Source of the DNA: Planctomycetota bacterium
GTDB taxonomy: Bacteria > Planctomycetota > MHYJ01 > JACPTZ01
Length of the DNA: 64,000 nt
Direction: 5' to 3'
Assembly (NCBI GenBank): GCA_016192525.1
Contig: JACPTZ010000041.1
Coordinates: 1-64,000 of the forward strand
Shown: positions 1,041 to 2,463 of the stretch, piece after piece
Layout of the letters: the number at the start of each line of letters is the position of its first letter
Position numbering within the stretch: the stretch's first letter is position 1
Position numbers and translations under genes: made by a program
The notes under the pieces: model-generated
Database searches by the model: none
What the model was told of the DNA's origin: nothing
The model's input: only the letters and a program-made list of their open reading frames with translations

Positions 1041-1217
1041 ATGGCAAAGATTCTGGGAAGCCTTCTCGGTGGAGGCCTGGGCCTCGGCGTCGGGGCCGCC
1101 ATCCTCGCGAGGCAGGAATGCGTGACCTGAATCAGCCCGGCGGTGATCTCCACGGTCGTGGGGATCGTCGGCGGCCTGCTCGTGGCGGGACTCTGGAAGA
1201 AGCCGCCCGCCGCCTGA
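1041..1217 (+). CDS. putative small membrane protein with in-frame UGA at codon 30 (candidate selenoprotein or interrupted ORF)
   Basis: SD AGGAGAG then ATG: MAKILGSLLGGGLGLGVGAAILARQECVT(UGA)ISPAVISTVVGIVGGLLVAGLWKKPPAA(stop). Hydrophobic on both sides of the UGA; ends 2 nt before the convergent gene's stop codon. Confidence 0.4.
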
Positions 1218-1218
1218 T

Positions 1219-2463
1219 CTACCTCAGTACCGCGCTCGCAAACGTGACGGTCGACTTCGTGTCGGGATCGAGCGTTTGACCGTAGGTGAGCACTTCGGCC
1301 TTCGAGGCGTCCACCGTCCGAAGGAGGGTGTAGATCGCCGGATAGCCGCAGATGTGGCGGGCGTCGCCGTCCTTCGCGATGCCGGCGTAGAAGGCGGCGG
1401 GATCGCGGGCCACGACCGCATCGAGCAGCGACCGGTCGGCGGCCTCGATCTTCGGGAGCCGCTCCAGAGTGATCGCCTCCTCGTCGCCGAACTGCGGCCC
1501 CTGATGGGCGAGGTCCACGCCGGCGACCACGCACACCTCTTCCCCCCTCGACTGCACCATCTCCCTGAGCGTTCGGATGAAGTCCTCGATCTCCGGGGTC
1601 TTCTCCGGCGGCTTCCTGGCGTCCATCGACTCCGAGTGCGTTCCGCACAGGATCGGCACGATCCGGATCCTGCGCCTTCCCTGGAAGAGGTGCTGGAGGA
1701 AGACCACCTGGAACTCGATCGAGTGCTCGTCCCGATGGACGTACTCGGCCTCGAAGCAGGGGCGACCGTACCGGCGGGCGAGTTCATCGACGAAATCGAC
1801 GTCGGTCGGCGCCACCCCGTAGGGCGTCTCGAAGTCCTTCCGCGTGAGGGTAAAGACCTCGCCGAGGCCGGTATGGGCGATGCCGAGGACGACGAAGAGG
1901 GTGGCCTTCGGGCATCCCTCCGCGAGCGCCTTGTAGGCCCAGCCGTAGGCGGGTCCGCCGCGGTGATAGTCGATATGCGGGGCCATGAGTCCCCGCACCG
2001 GCCGGGCGGCGCTGTTCGGGACCGGCTTCGACCCGGGGCCCTTCGCGGCCGTGTAGAAGGAGTCAAGCCTCTGGCGCAGGGCTGTCGGATCGGTGGGGTA
2101 GCCCCCGCCGGCGTGGGAGGCGACGCGCACCGTCGAGGCTGCGAACTCGTCCCGCACCCTCTGGAACGCCTGACGGAAGCGCGGGGTGTCGAGAAACAGG
2201 GCGTCGTCGAGCTGATCGATGATCTTCTCGATGTCGTCGGCCGGGATGATGGCGCCGAACCGTTTCGCCACCTCCGACTGGACGTCGCGGAGGTCGCGCA
2301 CGCCGTCGCACATCGCCATCACGACATAGGCGGGAACCGGGAGCCCGAGCATCACCTGGCTGAGGTGGAGGGGGTCGCGCAGGAGGACGACCGGCCCCTG
2401 TTCGCCCCGGGTGGGGACGGTCTCGACGGGGCGGAGACGCGGCAGCGGGCCTTCGCGGGGCAT
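1219..2463 (-). CDS. MEMO1/AmmeMemoRadiSam system protein B family with N-terminal PqqD-like domain
   Basis: 414 aa; 'GLMAPHIDYHRGGPAYGWAYKAL', 'VVLGIAHTGLG' typical of MEMO family; N-terminal 'YVVMAMCDGVRDLRDVQSEVAKRFG' resembles PqqD wHTH. Confidence 0.8.
   Translation of the reverse strand: MPREGPLPRLRPVETVPTRGEQGPVVLLRDPLHLSQVMLGLPVPAYVVMAMCDGVRDLRDVQSEVAKRFGAIIPADDIEKIIDQLDDALFLDTPRFRQAFQRVRDEFAASTVRVASHAGGGYPTDPTALRQRLDSFYTAAKGPGSKPVPNSAARPVRGLMAPHIDYHRGGPAYGWAYKALAEGCPKATLFVVLGIAHTGLGEVFTLTRKDFETPYGVAPTDVDFVDELARRYGRPCFEAEYVHRDEHSIEFQVVFLQHLFQGRRRIRIVPILCGTHSESMDARKPPEKTPEIEDFIRTLREMVQSRGEEVCVVAGVDLAHQGPQFGDEEAITLERLPKIEAADRSLLDAVVARDPAAFYAGIAKDGDARHICGYPAIYTLLRTVDASKAEVLTYGQTLDPDTKSTVTFASAVLR

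Follow-up and report, generated by a model that had tools for sequence, protein, structure and literature searches.

The window analysed here, 64,000 nucleotides of a Planctomycetota contig, contains near its start a small candidate selenoprotein gene between a PAP2-family phosphatase gene and a convergent MEMO-family gene. The features of this region are as follows.

239–967, + strand: PAP2-family phosphatase gene (PF14378, E 3e-13), upstream neighbour, outside the proposed mechanism
1030–1036, + strand: Shine–Dalgarno-like AGGAGAG, 4 nt upstream of the ATG, read from the sequence
1041–1217, + strand: candidate selenoprotein gene, 58 codons plus stop, proposed from alignments, shuffles and a two-helix model
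1128–1130, + strand: UGA codon 30, proposed selenocysteine (Sec) of C27-x2-U30, proposed from the sequence and 11 TGA-bearing relatives
1137–1174, + strand: SECIS-like hairpin, core stem 1145–1153/1158–1166, loop GGUC at 1154–1157, 23 nt from the UGA
1215–1217, + strand: UGA proposed as the true stop, one base from the MEMO stop codon
1219–2463, − strand: MEMO-family gene (PF01875, E 1e-42), convergent neighbour, outside the proposed mechanism

The ATG at 1041, upstream of which lies an in-frame TAG at 999, opens a frame of 29 codons that runs into the TGA at 1128–1130 and continues through 28 open codons to a second TGA at 1215–1217. An earlier note on this DNA had pointed to the combination of AGGAGAG, ATG, an in-frame UGA within a CVTU motif and a second stop at 1215–1217 just before the end of the convergent gene. 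All of these elements were confirmed in the sequence, and the gap between the second TGA and the minus-strand stop codon of the MEMO gene (1219–1221) is a single base. With the first TGA read as U, the frame translates to MAKILGSLLGGGLGLGVGAAILARQECVTUISPAVISTVVGIVGGLLVAGLWKKPPAA. In this GC-rich window at least 28 codons remain open past the TGA in 68% of long TGA-ended frames; by itself, the open stretch after the UGA at 1128–1130 is not unusual. The third-position GC content past this TGA is 0.96, compared with 0.90 in the neighbouring genes, and the post-UGA half encodes a second hydrophobic helix. One and the same frame reads as coding on both sides of the UGA, as in a bacterial selenoprotein.

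Downstream of the UGA, the sequence GATCTCCAC-GGTC-GTGGGGATC (1145–1166) forms the core of a hairpin that in its extended form (1137–1174) folds at −25.0 kcal/mol, 23 nt past the UGA where the earlier note had counted about 24. The hairpin complies with every constraint of the bSECIS model as given in PMC13188914: an apical loop of 3–9 nt with a G within its first two positions, a stem of 4–16 bp, a distance of 16–37 nt from the UGA and a folding energy of at most −7.5 kcal/mol. In a sample of 900 TGAs from the window, 64% comply with the same generic rules, so that passing them says nothing by itself; in GC-rich DNA the model is loose. The stability of this hairpin was matched at 2.4% of the 900 TGAs, and such stability together with a loop that begins with GGU was found at 0.2%. 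For the stretch as a whole the folding z is −2.4. In the SECIS element of E. coli fdhF, too, the apical loop is GGUC and lies a short way past the UGA; the upper stem of that element in addition has a bulged U, which the window hairpin lacks. We rejected an intrinsic terminator as the reading of this structure because no U-run follows it, and an Rfam scan of the window returned no match.

The draft assembly to which the window belongs is 82% complete and consists of 227 contigs. Its genes include one for SelA (E 9e-141) and one for the C-terminal 542 amino acids of SelB, a protein that is cut at a contig start and whose winged-helix domains are present. Neither SelD nor a tRNA-Sec with a UCA anticodon was found in this 82%-complete draft, so that a search of the genome for selA, selB, selC and selD bore out the first two genes, selB in truncated form, and did not recover the others. 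The best match to SelD (L049) was discarded, as its own sequence reads as a ThiL-type kinase.

Apart from plain serine tRNA, the most Sec-like tRNA match in the genome has the anticodon GCA and U73 (L004). This 93-nt tRNA, shaped like tRNA-Sec, is encoded on contig C164 (L004 1501–1593, minus strand); its D stem is long with a 4-nt loop, and its acceptor branch is 7/5 by eye. An ordinary tRNA-Cys is also present (L007 1093–1167). Cysteine tRNAs known as selC* tRNA-Cys, some with a UCA anticodon, have been described (PMC7609411), and the L004 tRNA resembles them except for its 7/5 branch as judged by eye. It may be a candidate selC*-type tRNA-Cys from outside the phyla named in that study. With its GCA anticodon, this tRNA should not decode UGA.

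Hydropathy and a single-sequence AlphaFold2 model of modest confidence (mean pLDDT 69) place two helices at residues 2–28 and 33–53 of the 58-residue protein, and C27 and U30 fall at the turn. A search of solved structures with the window protein gave no useful match. Read from the distribution of charges, the loop of the window protein, which has lysines at both ends, would lie outside.

Searches with the window protein gave no credible match in 24 genomes of its own class, and the genome searches found no close orthologue that could show whether the UGA is retained. A scan of GTDB genomes anchored on the MEMO gene recovered two distant loci, both of which are without the small gene. Among 394 genomes of the phylum there was one credible match (L031), in which a domain of DUF6132 type is joined to thioredoxin; most of the other weak matches were read as unrelated frames and set aside. 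DUF6132 (Pfam PF19628) comprises proteins of about 55 residues with two glycine-rich helices and a pair of cysteines in the loop between them, an architecture also found in the window protein, and both share the motif (N/S)P..ST..G..GLL past the loop pair. The family is often fused to thioredoxin, and Pfam assigns it no function.

Further searches used PF19628 and profiles built from it. In the same 394 genomes, two genes scored above the cut-off with a TGA exactly at the position of the second cysteine of other members: L058 has the loop CGDGQ-U-MMTGSW and L059 the loop CNSGG-U-GLLSDP, where Cys members read CSDGA-C-PLTANP or CQSGT-C-PITSNP. Profile searches of 398 genomes of another class and of the phylum sample added L118, L119–L124, L149 (loop CRPTT-U-MFTGNP; from the window's own class) and L146 (loop GGG-U-PMFCNPYVST). 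From about 790 genomes, all of one phylum, these searches yielded 11 further TGA-bearing genes in which the in-frame TGA coincides with, or lies near, the conserved second cysteine of the family. The C-x2-U spacing of the window protein recurs in L119 (CGTU), L120 (CGSU) and L123 (CGTU). Cys members, many of them with a fused thioredoxin, outnumber the TGA members. Three further genes were not counted: in L100 and L108 the TGA is the ordinary gene end, and the frame of L125 is degenerate.

A check for homologues with Cys or Sec at the UGA residue, which the earlier note had proposed, turned up relatives whose corresponding loop has either Cys or UGA, and the half after the UGA is conserved among them. 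The DUF6132-like family had escaped that note, and with it a lone candidate becomes a recurring one. All nine TGA genomes tested (a set that leaves out those of L146 and L149) encode SelA, versus 15 of 40 Cys-only genomes (Fisher 6e-4, kinship ignored). Loops with an early G at the model distance past the UGA were found for L059 (GGUU), L118 (GGUACG) and L149 (CGUG), and L058 has a GGUAUG loop past its UGA within a 45-nt fold. For the six genes L119–L124 and for L146 we found no convincing model hairpin past the UGA. Codon changes past the UGA between the TGA relatives showed no clear synonymous bias at such divergence and were not used. In L119–L121 charged stretches (KKRR, KRK, KNKK) lie in or before the loop, which by the same sequence reading would lie inside; this suggests that members may adopt opposite topologies. 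A further DUF6132-like frame (L150 1501–1656, genome G062, contig C256) is a sister of L146, which has TGA at the Cys/Sec site, and carries a TAA at that site (FVSRGAGGG-TAA-GITCNPYLAS); it could represent a pseudogene, a sequencing error or a recoded UAA.

How closely the window protein is related to this family was examined with profiles and with pairwise alignments. A Pfam scan gave no PF19628 match for the window protein (its score does not exceed the cut-off of 23.2 bits), and a profile built without the window protein gives it 7 bits, which is not above noise. In pairwise comparisons over 51 members the best scores were 81 with L062 and 77 with L093. Of 400 shuffles that kept composition and helix/loop segments, 3 attained the best score (about 0.01 after correction), and 8 attained the score of the post-UGA half alone against family members. 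L062 and L093, both Cys members, share with the window protein a stretch that includes IST..G..GLL(V/A)A. The window protein has the two glycine-rich helices, the loop with its Cys/Sec pair and the (N/S)P..ST..G..GLL motif, and the residue encoded by its UGA has Cys and Sec counterparts in the related family. The DUF6132 pair is C-x4-C whereas that of the window protein is C-x2-U; the U of the window protein is offset by one or two residues, and its match to the family Cys column depends on gap placement. Because the pairwise similarity comes without a profile match, we regard kinship to DUF6132 as probable and not as formal membership.

The best explanation for these observations, and one we consider likely, is a small two-helix membrane selenoprotein with Sec at UGA30 that is a diverged relative of DUF6132. 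SelB and Sec-tRNA would decode the UGA at 1128–1130 as selenocysteine, with the hairpin at 1137–1174 just downstream as the recoding cue. The predicted product has 58 residues, with C27-x2-U30 in a short loop between two glycine-rich transmembrane helices, and is most likely a diverged relative of DUF6132, in whose loop there is a conserved Cys pair with one Cys exchanged for Sec in relatives. Insertion of Sec at this codon appears to us likely from codon context, hairpin and machinery, with the family as support. The selenoprotein interpretation of the earlier note, a 58-codon CVTU protein made through the UGA, is supported by this analysis, and none of the findings that it had named as speaking against it (a genome lacking Sec machinery, homologues that all end at the UGA, a downstream half without conservation, or TGG, TGC or an indel on re-sequencing) came to light.

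Several other readings of the locus were weighed against this one. Sequencing or assembly could have turned a TGC or TGG codon into TGA by mistake, and the gene would then belong to a small membrane family as a normal member with Cys (CVTC) or Trp at this site. There is a single copy of the gene, from a draft of 227 contigs, and TGC would yield a CxxC motif that is also sensible for such a protein; but an error would not account for a stable GGUC-loop hairpin at the right distance in a genome with selA and selB, nor for the independent occurrence of TGA at this site in 11 relatives, and we consider it improbable. Little probability also attaches to the view that the UGA is a real stop, in which case the locus would encode a one-helix peptide of 29 residues, or nothing, and the DNA beyond would be noncoding and open by chance. 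Chance frames are cheap in this window, as the 68% of long TGA-ended frames that stay open for at least 28 codons illustrates, yet the sequence past the UGA combines a third-position GC of 0.96 with a second membrane helix, its similarity to family members is reached by only 8 of 400 shuffles, and a single base separates the end of the frame from the stop of the convergent gene. It is very improbable that the UGA is read as another amino acid, either by plain read-through (for example as Trp) or as Cys by a special tRNA. The tRNA-Sec-like tRNA of this genome (L004, anticodon GCA, U73) and the UCA-bearing selC* tRNA-Cys of PMC7609411 lend this idea some substance, but a GCA anticodon does not pair with UGA, and SelA, which is needed only for the Sec route, is encoded here as well as in each of the nine TGA genomes tested.

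A different question is whether a selenoprotein unrelated to DUF6132 could have acquired its size, its glycine-rich helices and its redox pair in the loop independently. The missing Pfam match and the failure of the window-free profile to detect the window protein are consistent with such an origin, and glycine-rich helices inflate similarity. However, the resemblance to L062 and L093, of which IST..G..GLL(V/A)A is a part, holds up against shuffling that preserves segments, the sole credible match in the 394-genome search with the window protein was of DUF6132 type, and the helix–loop–helix size and the place of the redox pair are equal. We judge an independent origin to be unlikely.

As for the function of the two-helix selenoprotein, the C27/U30 pair might cycle between a selenenylsulfide and the thiol/selenol form and so shuttle electrons between a protein of thioredoxin type and an acceptor in the membrane or periplasm. 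We propose this redox-relay role tentatively, by analogy with the thioredoxin fusions and the neighbouring peroxidase and reductase genes of relatives. The gene for an exported glutathione peroxidase (GPx) adjoins the Sec member in genomes G344 (L133) and G750 (L132), and in G344 the gene for an exported methionine sulfoxide reductase (MsrA) lies beyond it. In a single family of another class, four genomes from several genera have queF directly after the Sec member and on the same strand (L136, L137, L139, L140; read from sequence and confirmed with Pfam in one). The neighbours of the window's candidate gene, the PAP2 phosphatase and MEMO genes, do not suggest a redox role.

In a table of 119 prokaryotic selenoprotein families and subfamilies from 2026 (PMC13188914, Table 1), DUF6132/PF19628 is absent. 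No NCBIfam model fits these proteins, and we found no paper on DUF6132 in the open-access literature; an annotated case may exist elsewhere. Selenoproteins in marine Planctomycetes are the subject of an earlier study (PMC4807772). Like catalogued bacterial selenoproteins, the window gene has a CxxU motif and a UGA followed at a typical distance by a SECIS-like hairpin, in a genome with selA and selB. Two membrane Sec proteins invite comparison: the MerT-like mercuric transport protein (PF02411, C/SxxU), which also has a CxxU motif, and the YeeE/YedE transporter (PF04143, GUxSG); the window protein matches neither PF02411 nor PF04143. A broader reading is possible, though we hold it to be rather doubtful: DUF6132-like proteins may constitute a recurring uncatalogued selenoprotein family of minimal two-helix redox relays, in which Cys gave way to Sec on several occasions and which carry electrons between thioredoxin and exported peroxidase or MsrA partners, with the window protein as a diverged C-x2-U form. 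If the selenoprotein interpretation is right, it would add a selenoprotein family of minimal size, offer an initial clue to what DUF6132 does (thiol/selenol redox at the membrane) and provide a 58-residue model for why Sec serves at the membrane boundary. Since gene callers take UGA as a stop, selenoprotein genes of very small size are the ones most readily overlooked.

Two minor observations concern other parts of the window. The MEMO-family protein (1219–2463, minus strand) is extended at its N-terminus by about 110 residues that match PqqD weakly, and the start of the contig (1–148) carries tandem repeats built on two units, one of 17 bases, GACGCGGAGGGGGGGGA, and one of 30 bases.
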